In this document: positions 9,686 to 44,860 of the stretch, one piece after another
How the letters are laid out: every line of letters begins with the position of its first letter
Position numbering within the stretch: the stretch's first letter is position 1
DNA from: Actinomycetota bacterium
GTDB lineage: Bacteria > Actinomycetota > Thermoleophilia > Solirubrobacterales > Solirubrobacteraceae
Direction of reading: 5' to 3'
Assembly: GCA_018268595.1 (NCBI GenBank)
Contig: JAFDWH010000001.1
Span: forward strand, 62,001 to 126,000
DNA: 64,000 nt
The notes under the pieces: model-generated
What the model was told of the DNA's origin: nothing
Database searches by the model: none
What the model saw: the letters and a program-made list of their open reading frames with translations, nothing else
Translations under genes and position numbers: made by a program

Positions 9686-10426
9686 CTACGCGCCGCCGCG
9701 CCCGACCTGCGAGCCGCCGGTGACGTGCTCGGTCCCGTCGGCGAGACGCACCCACGCCTTGTGCGTGCCGTCGTAGTCCGGGCCCCACAGCAGCAGCGTC
9801 GCGGGCTCGCCGGCGACCGTGCAGGGCTCCGGCGCGGGCGCCTCGCCGTCCAGCAGCGCCCGCACGAACGGGTTCTCGCGCCGCTCGCGGGCGATCGTCG
9901 TCGGCGCACGATGGCCGGGGCGCACGCGCGTCTCGCCGGGCAGCGCGAGCAGCCGCTCCAGCGACGCGCGCAGGTCGGCGAGGCCCGTCGCCTGCGGCGC
10001 GCGCGTGCCGCCGACCGTGCCGGCGAACAGCACGTCGGCAGTGAAGACGTCGGTCCCGTCCACGAGGAAGGCGAGATGCCCGTGCGCGTGGCCCGGCGTG
10101 TGCAGGCACTCGATCGCGAGCGCCCCCTGCTCGATCCGCTGCCCGTCGGTCAGCGTCTCGTCCACCGACCCGTCCGGCAGCTCCTGCGCGGTGAGCGGGT
10201 GCGCGAGGACGCGCGCGCCGAGCTCGCGGTAGCCGTCGAGGCGGACGTGGTCGACGTGGTGGTGGGTGAGCAGCACGACCGGGACCGTCAGCCGCTCGCG
10301 CTCGATCTGCTCCAGCAGCGGGCCGGGGACCCCGTTGCCGTCGATCAGGACGCCGGTCCCGGCCTCGTCGTCGAGCAGGTAGGCGTTCGAGAGGTAGTCC
10401 TCGCTCTCGGTGCGGTGGAGACGCAT
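9686..10426 (-). CDS. MBL-fold metallo-hydrolase (glyoxalase II-like)
   Basis: A 246-residue metallo-beta-lactamase-fold protein with the metal signature HHHVDH (LTHHHVDHVRLDG) and downstream ligands H in TPGHAHGH, D in FTADVLF and H in RPGHRAP. It has a C-terminal extension of about 60 residues. It follows the class III alcohol dehydrogenase with a TGATG junction (its ATG shares one base with the upstream stop). In mycothiol-using actinobacteria an MBL gene sits next to S-(hydroxymethyl)mycothiol dehydrogenase, so hydrolysis of an S-formyl thiol ester is a sensible guess for this pair. Confidence 0.85.
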   Translation of the reverse strand: MRLHRTESEDYLSNAYLLDDEAGTGVLIDGNGVPGPLLEQIERERLTVPVVLLTHHHVDHVRLDGYRELGARVLAHPLTAQELPDGSVDETLTDGQRIEQGALAIECLHTPGHAHGHLAFLVDGTDVFTADVLFAGTVGGTRAPQATGLADLRASLERLLALPGETRVRPGHRAPTTIARERRENPFVRALLDGEAPAPEPCTVAGEPATLLLWGPDYDGTHKAWVRLADGTEHVTGGSQVGRGGA

Positions 10427-11532
10427 CAGGAGAACCCGATCACGGAGCGGACGCCGTCCTGGCGGTGCATCAGGTCGAAGCCCTCGTTGACCTGCTCGAG
10501 CGAGATGCGGTGCGAGACGAACGCGTCGACGTCGATCTCGCCGGCCAGGTAGCGGTCGACGAGCTGCGGCACCTGGTCGCGGCCCTTGACGCCGCCGAAG
10601 GAGGACCCGCAGACGCGGCGTCCGGTGATGAGCAGGCGCGGGACGACGTCGAGCGTCTCGTCCTTGCCGGCCACGCCGCACATCGTCGCGAGGCCCCAGC
10701 CCATGCGGGCCGCCTCGACCGCCTGCCGCATCACGCCGACGAGGCCGGTCGCCTCGAACGTGTAGTCGGCGCCCATCCCGCCGGTCTCCTCCAGCACGCG
10801 CTCGACCGTCCCGTCGCCGCCGATCCAAGTGTCGGTCGCGCCGTGGTGGCGCGCCATCGCGAGGCGCTCCTCCGACAGGTCGATGCAGACGATGCGCTCC
10901 GCCTTCTGCAGCCGCGCGCCGGCGACGGCACCGAGCCCGACCATGCCGGCGCCGAAGACGACGACGGTCGAGCCCTCCTCCACCTGCGCGGTGAACATCG
11001 CGGCGCCGATGCCGGTCGAGAGCCCGCAGGCGAACAGGCAGGCGGCCTCGAGCGGCGCCTCGGGATTTACCTTCGCGAGCGCGATCTCCGGCACCACGGT
11101 ATGCGTCGCGAACGTCGAGGTGCCCATGAAGTGGCGGATCGGCTCGCCGTCGCGCGTCAGGCGCGTCGTCCCGTCGGGGAGGAAGCCGAGGTTCTGCTGC
11201 TCGCGGATCGCGGTGCAGATGTTGGTCTTCGGCGAGCGGCAGTGCTCGCACTCGCGGCACTGCGGGGAGAACAGCGTGACGACGTGGTCGCCCACGGCGA
11301 CGTCGCGCACGTCGGGTCCGACCGCCTCGACTACGCCGGCGCCCTCGTGGCCGAGGACCGTCGGCGCGTAGCCGGACGGGTCGACCCCGGAGGCGGTGTA
11401 CATGTCGGTGTGGCAGACGCCGCACGCGACGAGCCGGACGAGCACCTCGCGTCCGCGCGGCTCCGCGAGGTCGAGGTCGGTGACGTTGAGCGGCTGGCCG
11501 AACTCCTCCAGCACCGCGGCGCGGATCCTCAT
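10426..11532 (-). CDS. Zinc-dependent class III-type alcohol/formaldehyde dehydrogenase
   Basis: A 368-residue medium-chain dehydrogenase. Catalytic zinc ligands appear in ACGVCHTD, GHEGAG and ACLFACGLSTG. Four structural-zinc cysteines are in the PQCRECEHCRSPKTNIC segment, and the NAD motif is GAGMVGLGAV. The PKTNIC and HFMGTSTFATH blocks are characteristic of class III enzymes (S-hydroxymethyl-thiol dehydrogenase). In this lineage the thiol could be mycothiol or another low-molecular-weight thiol. It overlaps purC as ATGA (11529-11532) and the MBL gene by one base, so the three are one transcript. A thiol-linked formaldehyde route coupled to purine synthesis is unusual. Confidence 0.88.
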   Translation of the reverse strand: MRIRAAVLEEFGQPLNVTDLDLAEPRGREVLVRLVACGVCHTDMYTASGVDPSGYAPTVLGHEGAGVVEAVGPDVRDVAVGDHVVTLFSPQCRECEHCRSPKTNICTAIREQQNLGFLPDGTTRLTRDGEPIRHFMGTSTFATHTVVPEIALAKVNPEAPLEAACLFACGLSTGIGAAMFTAQVEEGSTVVVFGAGMVGLGAVAGARLQKAERIVCIDLSEERLAMARHHGATDTWIGGDGTVERVLEETGGMGADYTFEATGLVGVMRQAVEAARMGWGLATMCGVAGKDETLDVVPRLLITGRRVCGSSFGGVKGRDQVPQLVDRYLAGEIDVDAFVSHRISLEQVNEGFDLMHRQDGVRSVIGFS

Positions 11533-12410
11533 GCCGCCGTCCGCTCCAGCCAGGCGTCGAACGGCTGGCCCGTGATCAGCTCGTACGCTTCGACGTACTT
11601 CGCGCGCGTGGCGGCGACGACGTCGTCGGGAATCGGCGGCGCGGGCGGCTTCTTGTCCCACCCGGTGCCGGACGCCCAGTCGCGCACGAACTGCTTGTCG
11701 AAGCTCGTCTGGCCCCTGCCGACCGCGTAGCCCTTTACGGGCCAGAAGCGCGAGGAGTCGGGGGTCAGCACCTCGTCGCCGAGCGTCAGCGCACCGTCCG
11801 CGCCCTTGCCCAGCTCGAACTTCGTGTCGGCCAGGATCACGCCGCGCGAGCGGGCGTGCTCCGCCGCCTTCGCGTACAGCTCCACCGAGGCGTCGCGCAC
11901 GCGCTCGGCGAGCGCGCGGTCCCCGCCCAGCAAGTCGATCGTCTGGTCGAAGTCGATCGCCTCGTCGTGGCCGACCTCGGCCTTCGTGCTCGGCGTGTAG
12001 AGCGGCTCGGGCAGCTGCTCGGACTCCTGCAGGCCCGGCGGCAGGTCCAGCCCGGACACCTTGCCGGTCGCGAGGTAGTCCTTCCAGCCGGAGCCGGTGA
12101 TGTAACCGCGCACGATGCACTCGACCGGCAGCATCGACAGCTTCTGCACCACGAGCGCGCGGCCGCGCACCTCCTCCGGCACGCCGTCCGTGGCGGAGAC
12201 GAAGTGGTTCGGGATCCGGTCCGCGAGCAGCTCGAACCAGAACACCGACAGACCCGTGAGGACCTTGCCCTTGTCCGGGATCGGCGTCGGGTGGATCGCG
12301 TCGTACGTCGAGATCCGGTCGGTCGCGACCAGCAGCAGCCGATCGCCGAGGTCGTACAGCTCACGGACCTTGCCAGAAGCGATCAGGGGCAGGTCGGAAA
12401 GTGCGGTCAT
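11529..12410 (-). CDS. purC: Phosphoribosylaminoimidazole-succinocarboxamide synthase (SAICAR synthetase)
   Basis: A 293-residue SAICAR synthase that condenses CAIR with aspartate using ATP in purine synthesis. Visible family blocks are GKVRELYDLGDRLLLVATDRIS at the N-terminus, VECIVRGYITGSGWKDY, ADTKFELG and LTPDSSRFW with KQFVRDW. Length matches the longer bacterial/yeast-type enzymes. ATG 12410 starts MTALSDLPL. A minus-strand TATACT at 12458-12453 could be its -10 box, giving a leader of about 35 nt. It is the first gene of a purC-dehydrogenase-MBL chain. Confidence 0.96.
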   Translation of the reverse strand: MTALSDLPLIASGKVRELYDLGDRLLLVATDRISTYDAIHPTPIPDKGKVLTGLSVFWFELLADRIPNHFVSATDGVPEEVRGRALVVQKLSMLPVECIVRGYITGSGWKDYLATGKVSGLDLPPGLQESEQLPEPLYTPSTKAEVGHDEAIDFDQTIDLLGGDRALAERVRDASVELYAKAAEHARSRGVILADTKFELGKGADGALTLGDEVLTPDSSRFWPVKGYAVGRGQTSFDKQFVRDWASGTGWDKKPPAPPIPDDVVAATRAKYVEAYELITGQPFDAWLERTAA

Positions 12411-12512
12411 CGTGGTCACCGAGGCCGAGTAGCGGACTGATGTTGAGTTGACAGTATACTTTCGATCAGCGCTCTGCAGCTGAGGGCGCCCGTTGCGGAC
12501 TCCCCCCCTCCC

Positions 12513-13556
12513 ATGACCGATCCGCTCGAAGCCCTGCCGGTTCGCCTCGCTGCACACACTGACGAGACGCGACGGGCGCTCGTGGCGCCGGACAGCTTCA
12601 AGGGGACGATCGCCGCGGCCGACGTGGCAGCGGCGATCGCGCGCGGTGTACGTGCCGCCGGCAGCACGGCGGTCGAGCTGCCGGTCGCCGACGGCGGTGA
12701 GGGGACGATGGACGTCCTCGTGCGCGCGCTCGGCGGCGAGCTCCACACGGTCGTCGCGAGCGATCCGCTCGGCCGACAGGTGCAGGCGAGCTGGGCGTTG
12801 CTGACCGACGGGCGCACCGCCGTCGTAGAGGCCGCGCAGGCGAGCGGACTCGGACTGGTCGGCAGGACGGAGCGCGGCCCGGCCACGGCGTGGGCCGCCT
12901 CGACGCGCGGCACCGGCGAGCTGATCGCCGCCGCGGTCGCCGCCGGCGCCGAGCGGGTCCTCGTGACGGTCGGCGGCTCGGCGACGACCGACGGCGGCGC
13001 GGGCGCACTGGAGGCGCTCGCGGAGGTCGACGTCGGCGACGTCGCGATCGACGTGCTCTGCGACGTCACGACGTCGTTCGAGCAGGCGCCCGCCGTGTTC
13101 GCCCCACAGAAGGGCGCTGATGCGTCAACCGTCGCACAGCTCGAGCGTCGGCTCACCGCGCTCGCAGCGACGTTCGCGCGCGACCCGCGGGACGAGCCGA
13201 TGACCGGTGCCGCTGGCGGGCTCGCCGGCGGCCTCTGGGCACAGCACGGCGCGCGGCTCGTCTCAGGCGCCGCCTACGTGCTCGACGCGCTCGGCTTCGA
13301 CGGCCTCGCGCGCAGCACGACGCTGGTCGTCACAGGCGAGGGCCGCCTCGACCTCCAGACGCGCCAGGGCAAGATCGTCGGCGAGATCGCCCGCCGCTGC
13401 CGCGGAATCGGCGTCCCCTGCCACGCAGTCGTCGGCCGCAACAAACTCGCTCCGCACGAGCGGGACGAGATCGGCATCGCCGCCATCACCGAGGCCGGCA
13501 CGATCGCGGCACTCGAAGCTGCCGGCACGGCGTTGGGCCGACGCGGCGCCGGCTGA
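12513..13556 (+). CDS. Glycerate 2-kinase (GarK/GlxK family)
   Basis: A 347-residue glycerate kinase of the type that phosphorylates glycerate to 2-phosphoglycerate with ATP. The family start APDSFKGT lies near residue 27, followed by PVADGGEGTMD, ATDGGAGALEA-like VGGSATTDGGAGAL and the C-terminal VVTGEGRLDLQTRQGK. The annotated start has no evident Shine-Dalgarno; the conserved core begins about 25 residues in, so a downstream GTG near 12580 is possible. Divergent from purC. With the 2-hydroxyacid (glyoxylate/hydroxypyruvate-type) dehydrogenase at 33 kb it could serve glyoxylate/glycerate metabolism. Confidence 0.92.
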   Translation: MTDPLEALPVRLAAHTDETRRALVAPDSFKGTIAAADVAAAIARGVRAAGSTAVELPVADGGEGTMDVLVRALGGELHTVVASDPLGRQVQASWALLTDGRTAVVEAAQASGLGLVGRTERGPATAWAASTRGTGELIAAAVAAGAERVLVTVGGSATTDGGAGALEALAEVDVGDVAIDVLCDVTTSFEQAPAVFAPQKGADASTVAQLERRLTALAATFARDPRDEPMTGAAGGLAGGLWAQHGARLVSGAAYVLDALGFDGLARSTTLVVTGEGRLDLQTRQGKIVGEIARRCRGIGVPCHAVVGRNKLAPHERDEIGIAAITEAGTIAALEAAGTALGRRGAG

Positions 13557-13642
13557 GACAGACGCCGCGGCTGGCGAGACAGAAAATCGGGCCCTGTACC
13601 GCAGAGCCTCCCGAAACGACCTTTCTCAGGGGGAGGTGCTTC

Positions 13643-13665
13643 CATAGCGGGGGCGGGTTTTGAAC
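13643..13665 (-). repeat. Degenerate copy of a tRNA 3' end (candidate relic attachment site)
   Basis: This 23-nt segment matches the 3' end of the tRNA-fMet gene at 32944-32966 in 21 of 23 positions and in the same orientation; a CCGCGACC block follows in both copies after a 6-nt insertion here. No complete tRNA can be folded: the T-stem no longer pairs and there is no anticodon arm. It lies in the 283-nt gap between glycerate kinase and the acyl-CoA ligase, which otherwise shows only a possible hairpin (CCTCCC 13607-13612 with GGGAGG about 13630) and no credible gene. Confidence 0.5.
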
Positions 13666-13839
13666 AGACATCCGCGACCGCCTACCGGATCGTCGAGCAG
13701 CGGGACCTGTCGTAGAAACGGGCAAGAGCCGGTTAATGACCCACCGGCCTATGTGCCGATCTTTGAGGCGGCGGGAGGCAGTAACCCGCGCGCGCCGCTG
13801 CGTGCTTCTCGATGATCTCCGCGACCCGGAAGACCTAAG

Positions 13840-40729: not shown

Positions 40730-40812
40730 GCCCGGGTGGCGGAACGGCAGACGCAGCCGACTTAAAATCGGTGGTCCCCAGGGGCGTGTGGGTTCGACTC
40801 CCACCCCGGGCA
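40730..40812 (+). tRNA. tRNA-Leu (UAA)
   Basis: An 83-nt class II tRNA: acceptor GCCCGGG/CCCGGGC with A73, anticodon stem-loop CCGA-CTTAAAA-TCGG giving anticodon TAA, a variable arm (TGGTCCCCAGGGGCGT) and T-arm GTGGGTTCGACTCCCAC. CCA is not encoded. The next gene's ATG is only 4 nt beyond the 3' end, so the tRNA and that mRNA are probably one precursor. Confidence 0.96.
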
Positions 40813-40816
40813 CTCG

Positions 40817-41650
40817 ATGACCCTCGGCTTCTGGATCTCCGACGCCTGCCTCGTCGGCGTGCAGAGCGCGCTCGTCGCACTGCCGCGCGGCCGTGCGCCC
40901 GCCCCGCTGGAGCGCCTCGCGCAGCGGCTCTCGGGCCGCGGCTGGGCGCTCGTGCCGCTCGCCTCGATCGTCTTCGTCGTGGTCGCGATCGGCGCCGCGA
41001 GCGCGGTCGCGGACGGGCTCGCGTGGCTCGCGCTGATCGCCGTGCCGCCGCTCGCGGCGGGGGCGCTCGGCGCGACGATGCGCGGCGGGCGTCCGTGGCT
41101 CGCGCCGCTCGTCGTCCCGCTGTTCGCGCTCGCGTGGTGGCGGCGCGGCACGCTCGTGGGCGAGGCCGCGGCCGTGCTGCTGTCGGCGCTCAGCTGCGTC
41201 ACGCTCGGCGTGCTGCTGACGGCGGTCGCGCCGCGCGGCTGGCTGAAGGCCGGGATCGTCGCGATGGCGGCGGTCGACGCCTACCTCGTCGCGACCGAGC
41301 TGCTGCAGCCGGCCAACGACGTGCTGAACGCCGCCGCGCCGCCGGCGCACCTGCCGCAGCTGCAGCGGGCGCTGCTCGGCGACGCGCTGATGGGCTACGG
41401 GGACCTGTTCGTCGCCGGCGTCTTCGGCGCGCTCGTGGCGGCGGAAGCGCGCGCCGAGCGCCCGGGCGACGCGCCGTGGCGCTGGGCGCTCGTCGTGCTC
41501 GCGCTCGCGCTCGCGTTCGACCTGCTGTTCCTCGTCGTGGACGTGCTGCCGGCGACGGTCCCCGTTGCGCTGACGCTGCTGCTGCGGGAGGGCCTGCGGC
41601 GGCGGGAGCGCCGCCGCGCCGTCTCTACGCGCGCACGCGCGGGAATATGA
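40817..41650 (+). CDS. Polytopic membrane protein with presenilin/SPP-like GxGD aspartyl-protease motifs
   Basis: A 277-residue protein with about eight hydrophobic segments (roughly 45-62, 64-84, 93-108, 117-137, 143-160, 190-207, 223-243, 244-257). Three motifs occur in the order of signal peptide peptidase/presenilin proteases: an Asp in a membrane helix (AAVDAYLVAT, Asp154), GYGDLFVAGVFGAL (Asp196; compare GxGD of SPP) and a PAL-like LPATVPVAL (244-252). The first motif lacks the usual Tyr. It starts 4 nt after tRNA-Leu and ends 49 nt before a membrane-tethered sigma factor gene, a possible substrate. Prepilin peptidases also carry GxGD, but their following Lys is absent. Confidence 0.6.
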   Translation: MTLGFWISDACLVGVQSALVALPRGRAPAPLERLAQRLSGRGWALVPLASIVFVVVAIGAASAVADGLAWLALIAVPPLAAGALGATMRGGRPWLAPLVVPLFALAWWRRGTLVGEAAAVLLSALSCVTLGVLLTAVAPRGWLKAGIVAMAAVDAYLVATELLQPANDVLNAAAPPAHLPQLQRALLGDALMGYGDLFVAGVFGALVAAEARAERPGDAPWRWALVVLALALAFDLLFLVVDVLPATVPVALTLLLREGLRRRERRRAVSTRARAGI

Positions 41651-41699
41651 GCGGAAAAGCGCCGAAAAGGCGCAACTTTCGCCGCTGCTACGGTGTCTC

Positions 41700-43286
41700 G
41701 TGAGTCGAGTGGAGGCCTCAGCTCTCACCCAACCGCTGTCGGGGACGCACGGACGCTCGCCGCTGCTGCGGTTGCAGTCCGACGAGCGCCTGATCGCGCT
41801 CGTGCGGCGCGGCAACCACGGCGCGTTCGAGACGCTCGTCGCGCGCTACCAGTCGCGCCTGCTCGCCTTCTGCCGCCACATGCTCGGCTCGCGCGAGGAC
41901 GCCGAGGACGTGCTGCAGGAGGTCTTCGCCGCCGCCTTCAACGCGATCCTCGCCGACGACCGGCCGATCAACGCGCGGCCCTGGCTCTACCGCATCGCGC
42001 GCAACCGCAGCCTCAACCACCTGCGGCGCGCCCAGCCGATCGGCGTCGACTCGATGGACGTCCACTACTCCGAGCACGGCGCGACGACCGCCGACAAGGT
42101 CGACAAGCGCGAGCAGTTCCGCGAGCTGATCGCCGACGTCCAGGAGCTGCCCGAGACGCAGCGCACCGCGCTGCTGCTGCGCGAGATCGACGCGCTCTCC
42201 TACGAGCAGATCGCCGAGGCGATGGAGACGACGATCCCGAGCGTCAAGTCGCTGCTCGTGCGCGCGCGCGTGTCGCTCGCCGAGGCGGCGGAGGCACGCC
42301 TGCTGTCGTGCGAGGACGTGCGCATCGAGCTGGCCGAGATCGCCGAGGGGCTGCGCCGGCGCACGACGCCGCCGGTGCGCCGCCACCTGCGCGCGTGCGA
42401 GCGCTGCGCCACGTTCCGCACGGAGCTGCGCGCGACCAGCAAGGCGCTCGCGCTGCTGCTGCCGGTCGGGCCGTTCCTGCTGGCGAAGAAGGTGCTGCTC
42501 GCGCACATCGGCCTCTCGTCCGTCGCCGGCGCCGGCGGCACCGGCGGGGCCGGCGGCGCCGCAACCGGCACCGCCGCGGTCGGCGCGCTCGCCGGCGGTG
42601 CGGGCGCGACCGGCAGCGGCGGCCTCGTGTCGGCCGGCCTCGGCGCGCTGGGCGCGAAGGCCGCCGCCGGCATCGCCGCCGCCGCGCTCGTGACGGCGGG
42701 CGCGGTCGAGATCGAGCACACGGCGCCGCGGCACGCGAGCCCGCGCTCGCACGTGGTCGCCCAGCAGCCGGACCGGCCCGTCGTCGCGGCGGTCGTGCAG
42801 CCGGCGCCGGCGCGCGTGCAGCGTGCGCTGGACGCCGCCGCCGCGAAGCCCCCGCGCCCGGCCGACGCGGGCGACAAGCGGCGACCGGCGACCACGACGA
42901 CGCAAACGGCCCCGCAGCCGACGACCACGACGCCCGCACCAGCCCCCGCGGTGACCGCCGAGCCGGGGCGCACGCAGCTCGAGACGAGCGCCACCACGTT
43001 GCCCTCGACGCTGCCGGCCACCGCGCCGCCGCCGACGCTCGTCCCCGTGCCGGCGCCGACCGGCGCGGCTCCGGCGACCACCCAGCCGCCCGCGACGAGC
43101 ACCACCCCCGCGCCGCCGCCGGCGAGCACGACGCCCGTGCCGCCGTCGTCGACCTCCCCGCAGCCGCCGCCGATCGCGCTGCCGCCCGTGGACGACCCCG
43201 GGACCGGGACCGGCACAACCCCGGCGCCCCCCGCGGAAGCCGGCCCGGACGACGGCACGCCGTCCCCGCCGGCCGACGAGCGGTAG
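41700..43286 (+). CDS. ECF sigma factor fused to zinc-finger anti-sigma domain, membrane segment and Pro/Thr-rich tail
   Basis: A 528-residue chain. Sigma region 2 is at about 28-110 (EDAEDVLQEVFAAAF), region 4 at 140-200 (LPETQRTALLLREIDALSYEQIAEAM). Next is a zf-HC2/ZAS-like domain with Cys204 and HLRACERC (His229, Cys233, Cys236), then Gly/Ala-rich hydrophobic sequence with a probable membrane span at 317-336, and a roughly 190-residue Pro/Thr/Ala tail. Sigma and anti-sigma parts are thus covalently joined and probably tethered. GTG 41700 is the first start and GTG 41709 an alternative; no Shine-Dalgarno. A small hairpin, GCGCC-GAAAA-GGCGC (41659-41673), lies in the 49-nt gap upstream. Confidence 0.88.
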   Translation: MSRVEASALTQPLSGTHGRSPLLRLQSDERLIALVRRGNHGAFETLVARYQSRLLAFCRHMLGSREDAEDVLQEVFAAAFNAILADDRPINARPWLYRIARNRSLNHLRRAQPIGVDSMDVHYSEHGATTADKVDKREQFRELIADVQELPETQRTALLLREIDALSYEQIAEAMETTIPSVKSLLVRARVSLAEAAEARLLSCEDVRIELAEIAEGLRRRTTPPVRRHLRACERCATFRTELRATSKALALLLPVGPFLLAKKVLLAHIGLSSVAGAGGTGGAGGAATGTAAVGALAGGAGATGSGGLVSAGLGALGAKAAAGIAAAALVTAGAVEIEHTAPRHASPRSHVVAQQPDRPVVAAVVQPAPARVQRALDAAAAKPPRPADAGDKRRPATTTTQTAPQPTTTTPAPAPAVTAEPGRTQLETSATTLPSTLPATAPPPTLVPVPAPTGAAPATTQPPATSTTPAPPPASTTPVPPSSTSPQPPPIALPPVDDPGTGTGTTPAPPAEAGPDDGTPSPPADER

Positions 43287-44284: not shown

Positions 44285-44860
44285 CTACGGCCCGGGCTCG
44301 CCGCCGGCGACGAGCGCGCCGGCGCGACGGCCGTCGATCAGGACCGCGTAGCGGCCCGCTCTGAGGCCGGGGACTCGCATCGCGACCCGCTTGCCGGCGG
44401 GGACGCGCAGCGCGTGCGGCACGGGCCCTCGCAGCGCGAGCGTGTGCGCCCGGCGGTCCTTCGAGCGCAGCGAGATCTCGACCGCGAGGAAGGCCGGCAC
44501 CGTGATCGTCCGCGGCTTCAGTCGACCGTGTGCCGTGATCGTGAACGCCGCCGGCACGCGCACCGCCTCCTCGCCGCCTCCGCCGGCGGTGCCGCCCGGC
44601 GACCCGCCGTTGCCGCCTTCGCCGGACATCTCGCCGTTGCGGCCCCCGCCAGGCGGTGCGGTCTGCGCGGGCGTCGTCGGGGCCGTCGCGGTCGGCGCGA
44701 CCGCGGTCGTCCCCGGCTGGGTCGCGTCCGGCGGCGGCGCCGTCGCGTCGGGCGCGCTGGCGGTCGGCGGGGCGCCGCCCGTGCTGCCGCCGCCGCACGC
44801 GCCCGCGGCGAGCGCGAGCGTCAGCGTCGCGGCGAGCGCAAGGCAGCGGGGGAACGGCAC
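44285..44860 (-). CDS. Lipoprotein with Pro/Thr/Gly-rich linker and beta-rich C-terminal domain
   Basis: A 191-residue lipoprotein: basic start, hydrophobic core and lipobox LAAGAC (Cys22), a low-complexity Ala/Pro/Thr then Gly linker (about 23-100), and a small C-terminal beta-rich domain (VPAAFTITAHGRLKPRTITVPAFLAVEI) that looks cupredoxin- or Ig-like but lacks clear Cys/His copper ligands. The GTG start is followed by MPFPRCLALAATL. Function unknown; probably surface-exposed. Confidence 0.75.
   Translation of the reverse strand: MPFPRCLALAATLTLALAAGACGGGSTGGAPPTASAPDATAPPPDATQPGTTAVAPTATAPTTPAQTAPPGGGRNGEMSGEGGNGGSPGGTAGGGGEEAVRVPAAFTITAHGRLKPRTITVPAFLAVEISLRSKDRRAHTLALRGPVPHALRVPAGKRVAMRVPGLRAGRYAVLIDGRRAGALVAGGEPGP

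Follow-up and report, generated by a model that had tools for sequence, protein, structure and literature searches.

The 64,000-nucleotide stretch analysed here (the window) belongs to an Actinomycetota bacterium of the family Solirubrobacteraceae, class Thermoleophilia (assembly GCA_018268595.1, contig JAFDWH010000001.1, positions 62,001 to 126,000 of the forward strand); all coordinates below refer to the window. Two consecutive genes of its plus strand are the subject of this section. The first (40817..41650) encodes a protein of 277 residues with nine transmembrane (TM) helices, predicted to be a GxGD-type, di-aspartyl intramembrane protease of the presenilin/signal peptide peptidase (SPP) fold. 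The second (41700..43286) encodes a membrane-tethered sigma factor of the extracytoplasmic function (ECF) type. A preliminary description of this locus, made from the sequence alone, had proposed that the first protein is such a protease and that it serves as a dedicated scissor releasing the sigma domain of the second. The analysis reported here strongly supports the first proposal, at the level of a structural model, and makes the second unlikely.

Fold, motifs and family of the 277-residue protein

The structure of the protein was predicted by AlphaFold2 from an alignment of 68 sequences, with a predicted local distance difference test score (pLDDT) of 95.8 and a predicted template modelling score (pTM) of 0.92. 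The model consists of nine membrane helices (residues 3-21, 41-60, 63-87, 93-108, 113-137, 140-159, 194-213, 220-239 and 247-275), together with a short helix (163-172) and, directly before TM7, a beta hairpin (184-193). When this model was compared with the Protein Data Bank (PDB) by Foldseek, the best eight matches were human SPPL2a, gamma-secretase presenilin-1 and the archaeal presenilin homologue PSH. The top 20 PDB entries returned by VIA-align were likewise all presenilin, SPPL2a or archaeal PSH, with Z scores of 10.1-17.8 over 194-260 residues, to be read with the caution that helical bundles may reach a Z of about 13 by chance. The first unrelated entry scored only 5.5. A chance match of the fold is made unlikely by this sharp drop, by an alignment that extends over the whole protein and by the placement of the motifs on the right helices.

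Indeed, the model places the three motifs where a presenilin/SPP protease would carry them. The first putative catalytic aspartate, D154 (codon 41276-41278), lies near the end of TM6 (residues 140-159, 41234..41293). The second, D196 (codon 41402-41404), lies in a GYGD motif at the start of TM7 (residues 194-213, 41396..41455), and the sequence PATVP (residues 245-249, 41549..41563) opens TM9 at the position of the PAL motif. The motif set of the preliminary description, namely D154, GYGDLFVAGVFGAL with its D196, and LPATVPVAL, was thus found at the positions claimed in the 277-residue open reading frame (ORF).

Relatives of the protein were detected in 97 of the 146 genomes of the window's family, in 76 of 299 genomes of the class and in 8 of 396 genomes of the phylum, all eight within the same class; the class and phylum counts come from single-protein searches and therefore undercount distant members. 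Among 68 relatives, with 44-66% identity to the window protein, D154, G193-Y-G-D196, G204 and P245-A-T-x-P249 are invariant, GYGD and PAT[VGAL]P both being present in 68/68. The two aspartates are separated by 42 residues in 65 of these 68 members, and D196 and P245 by 43-49. Such invariance, combined with a nearly constant spacing, puts the motif set beyond chance. In a class-wide alignment of 30 members, in which identities fall to 31%, the only invariant positions are Q16, P77, D154, P180, D196, T247 and P249, with P245, A246 and V248 conserved at 90% or more. In most members Ala, Val or Ile precedes D154, and Tyr never does so in the alignments examined, so that the YD of peptidase family A22 does not occur here. 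On the basis of the model and of these residues, a presenilin/SPP shape with two putative catalytic aspartates can be predicted with high confidence.

The comparison with peptidase families A22 and A24 at the level of sequence profiles, which the same description had recommended for 40817-41650, gave a different outcome, neither family being matched by Pfam profiles. No Pfam or NCBIfam model recognises the protease family, whether the query was a single protein or an alignment (of 19 or of 30 members), and the same queries gave no presenilin match when profiles were searched against the PDB. Their sole match, a TFIIH-like protein (E 0.27-1), was set aside as a chance hit. The archaeal PSH model PF06550 matched nothing in the window genome or in the 396 genomes of the phylum. 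The homology to A22 thus rests on the predicted fold, and the relationship would be at most that of a remote, separate branch; "presenilin-fold, SPP-like" is therefore the appropriate name, rather than that of a filed A22 member. To our knowledge, the GxGD proteases of bacteria are otherwise prepilin peptidases. The Thermoleophilia proteins constitute a separate sequence family and probably a branch of the presenilin/SPP fold that had escaped notice in bacteria. The sources consulted describe presenilin/SPP-type aspartyl proteases from eukaryotes and archaea only (PMC4326451, PMC2947513), and no report of a bacterial family was found in the literature covered, which did not extend to the archaeal survey of Raut et al. 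2021.

Membrane orientation and comparison with known proteases

The orientation of the protein in the membrane can be predicted from the charges of its loops. In averages over 68 sequences, positive net charge falls on the loops between helices 1-2 (+3.7), 3-4 (+1.7), 5-6 (+0.5) and 7-8 (+1.3) and on the C-terminus (+4.4), the alternate loops (2-3, 4-5, 6-7 and 8-9) being neutral or negative. According to the positive-inside rule, this alternation predicts an external N-terminus and an internal C-terminus, so that the charge pattern supports the orientation of SPP for the protein and presumably for its active site. SPPs have their N-terminus on the outer or lumenal side and cut type II substrates, presenilin being inverted (PMC7768045, PMC7366577). 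By analogy, type II (N-in) segments would be the most likely substrates of the window protein. D154 on TM6 and D196 on TM7 would form its catalytic pair, with PATxP replacing PAL at the start of TM9; the enzyme would act as a single subunit, and its targets might be, for example, signal peptides left over after processing or membrane anchors with an N-in orientation.

The closest known systems are the SPP/SPPL proteases (MEROPS A22B). Human SPPL2a (9k93) shares the nine-TM fold (Z 17.8, 245 residues aligned, root-mean-square deviation 3.7), the TM6 aspartate, the GxGD aspartate of TM7, the proline motif of TM9 and the predicted N-out/C-in orientation. The window protein differs from this group in being bacterial, in its size of 277 residues without an extra domain such as PA, in having PATxP for PAL and in showing no detectable sequence similarity (about 14% identity). 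Presenilin-1, the A22A protease of gamma-secretase, is similar in fold (Z up to 16.5, up to 260 residues) and in its TM6 and TM7 aspartates; its TM6 is likewise followed by a short helix and its TM7 preceded by beta strands. In contrast with presenilin-1, the predicted membrane orientation is opposite, partner subunits are not expected, and the TM6-TM7 loop of 38 residues is too short for the presenilin autocleavage loop. The archaeal PSH/MCMJR1 of Methanoculleus marisnigri is a prokaryotic protease of the presenilin fold, with which the model aligns as well (4hyg_B, Z 12.1, 219 residues); its Pfam family, PF06550, is the one that found no member in the window genome or in the 396 phylum genomes.

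Gene context and the neighbouring sigma factor

The neighbours of the protease gene vary, and no conserved partner emerges when its surroundings are compared across genera. An apparently conserved upstream gene (cluster C1) was rejected as an artefact, being an antisense reading of the protease gene itself. In the window, only 3 nt lie between the end of a tRNA-Leu (TAA) gene (40730..40813, plus strand) and the start codon of the protease, which leaves no space for a ribosome-binding site; the start codon is nevertheless backed by the alignment of congeners. This tRNA was not seen beside the 30 other family loci scanned, and a processed, near-leaderless protease mRNA is therefore possible. ARAGORN also reported a tRNA-Pro at 44644-44741, within a region of overlapping ORFs, whose length of 98 nt suggests a false positive. 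The protease is present twice in genomes of the window's genus. The second copy of the window genome (L002, G000 C31:304423-305118) is divergent, with 47% identity and the motif GYAD, and adjoins a gene for a glyoxalase-type dioxygenase. Further away, at loci from other orders (L196, L198, L203, L204, L206, L208, L210 and L211), GxGD is replaced by GWLD, GWMD or EYAD. These distant relatives keep both aspartates and would allow the requirement for the glycine to be gauged from natural variants.

The gene downstream of the protease encodes an ECF52-like sigma factor of 528 residues, combining in one chain sigma-70 regions 2 and 4 (Pfam), a fused anti-sigma-type finger, one membrane segment and a Pro/Thr-rich tail of about 190 residues. 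The zinc-finger-like motif C204...H229-x3-C233-x2-C236 (42309..42407) was assigned by motif and conservation, the Pfam zf-HC2 model giving no match, and is retained in 20/20 orthologues examined. The membrane segment (residues ~318-338, 42651..42713), identified by its conservation, is hydrophobic and rich in Ala and Gly, and the protein is predicted to be of type II (N-in). An AlphaFold2 model of the N-terminal 347 residues, built from five sequences, had a pLDDT of 47 and was used only for a helix at 312-333. The preliminary description of a tethered, single-chain sigma/finger protein was therefore right. This one-protein sigma/anti-sigma architecture is already known from ECF52 (PMC5826349, PMC8999054) and is hence not new: SCO4117 of Streptomyces coelicolor likewise joins a sigma domain, a zinc finger, a membrane segment and a Pro-rich extracytoplasmic tail in one chain. 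The name is limited to "ECF52-like" because Pfam finds no carbohydrate-binding domain in the tail of the window protein, unlike that of ECF52.

The gap of 49 nt between the two genes, as first described, is correct for a start at GTG 41700. GTG 41709 is nevertheless the likelier start, since the congeners' proteins begin at VEVSAL, aligned with this codon, and since a promoter-like element ends at 41697. This candidate ECF-type promoter, GCAACTTTCGCCGCTGCTACGGTGTC (41672..41697, plus strand), is part of a conserved block, GCAACT...TGCTACGGTGTC, that is kept directly upstream of the sigma gene in 7/7 congeners, including G031. Of 21 sigma loci taken from across the family, 18 have a related element, GCAAC-N14-17-GTGTC/GGTTC, compared with 0.5% of shuffles, a rate that is optimistic because the pattern was chosen post hoc. 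The element precedes the sigma gene in most genera irrespective of what lies upstream. It resembles an ECF-type promoter, is probably autoregulatory and could serve to trace the sigma regulon.

Several observations could nevertheless be taken to link the two genes. They are adjacent and co-directional in six of the seven genomes of the genus (G000, G026, G027, G028, G029 and G030). For ECF52 sigma factors, an uncharacterised protease has been suggested as the releasing enzyme (PMC5826349, PMC8999054). A sigma protein of predicted type II, with an Ala/Gly-rich membrane segment, would also present a fitting geometry to a protease oriented like SPP, so that its cleavage within the genus is geometrically possible. 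The protease would then be the dedicated release enzyme of its neighbour, cutting the membrane segment to free the sigma domain.

The distribution of both genes argues against such a dedicated role. In the remaining genome of the genus, G031, about 4 kb separate the protease from the sigma gene, with two gene-like ORFs of the opposite strand in between (L052, ~9797-13772: a collagen-like secreted protein and a LuxR/AAA regulator). Outside the genus, no adjacency was found: at 75 protease loci with flanks of up to 6 kb, the sigma gene is present in four only, all within the genus, and where a genome of another genus consists of a single contig, ~0.2 to 2.2 Mb separate the two genes. The sigma factor is found in 133 of the 146 family genomes and in 69 of the 71 of high quality; the protease is found in 48 of these 71. 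At least 21 high-quality genomes thus carry the sigma factor without a detectable protease, and the 13 sigma orthologues examined from such genomes all keep the finger, the membrane segment and the tail. In addition, the sigma gene has its own conserved promoter-like element. Other enzymes might perform the release as well: in a characterised case, the fused sigma factor IutY is freed by Prc and the M50 protease RseP (PMC8999054), and the window genome contains several matches to M50 site-2 proteases. Finally, SPP and SPPL2 usually require a short ectodomain (PMC7366577), at variance with the sigma tail of about 190 residues. The preliminary description would have been refuted had the two genes been neighbours in no related genome; congeners do share the neighbourhood, but the wider distribution of the genes speaks against dedication. 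The dedicated scissor is unlikely, with about one chance in ten in our estimation.

Weighing of the readings and significance

The reading that we favour, and consider quite probable as a whole, is that of an aspartyl intramembrane protease of the SPP/presenilin fold, N-out/C-in, most likely acting on type II substrates, while the tethered sigma factor next to it would be transcribed separately, belong to a known kind and not be its dedicated substrate. Some results weigh against this reading. The E-values given by Foldseek are weak, the best being 1.8e-3 with an identity of about 14%, and sequence profiles do not detect the A22 relationship. The TM9 motif is PATxP and not PAL, even if its position and the P-A pair are retained. 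Some distant members, with GWGD, GWLD or EYAD, keep the aspartate while the glycine of GxGD is lost in part of them. The adjacency in six of the seven genomes of the genus, for its part, could still reflect function.

The loss of this glycine (GWLD, EYAD) is also a point in favour of the view that the proteins have the presenilin fold without being proteases, as a pseudo-enzyme, a membrane chaperone or a transporter convergent on the same helix arrangement. This seems improbable, to nearly the same degree as the dedicated scissor, since neither aspartate varies anywhere in the class, a distinction shared by few residues, whereas the positions around them do vary, as expected of a catalytic pair. 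Slightly less probable still is a combination of the two proposals, in which the Thermoleophilia branch of the presenilin/SPP fold would have been recruited, in the window's genus, to make the last cleavage in the release of a single-chain ECF sigma/anti-sigma protein. If true, the release of a sigma factor by a presenilin-like enzyme would constitute a bacterial counterpart of Notch-type signalling. An enzyme of the prepilin peptidase type (A24/FlaK) is the least credible alternative by far: GxGD at the second aspartate is common to A22 and A24, and the A24 profile gave a marginal match (E = 2.9) to one of 30 scanned members, but the window protein gives no match to that profile (PF01478) at E up to 10, the nine helices and the PATxP of TM9 are against it, and the leading fold matches are all A22. 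No A24 chain appears among the structures listed by Foldseek or VIA-align, which by itself does not decide against A24.

Under the favoured reading of an SPP-like protease, the proteins described here form a bacterial presenilin-fold family that sequence profiles have missed, which bears on the origin of this fold. The family would also supply compact enzymes made of a single chain for studies of structure and inhibition.
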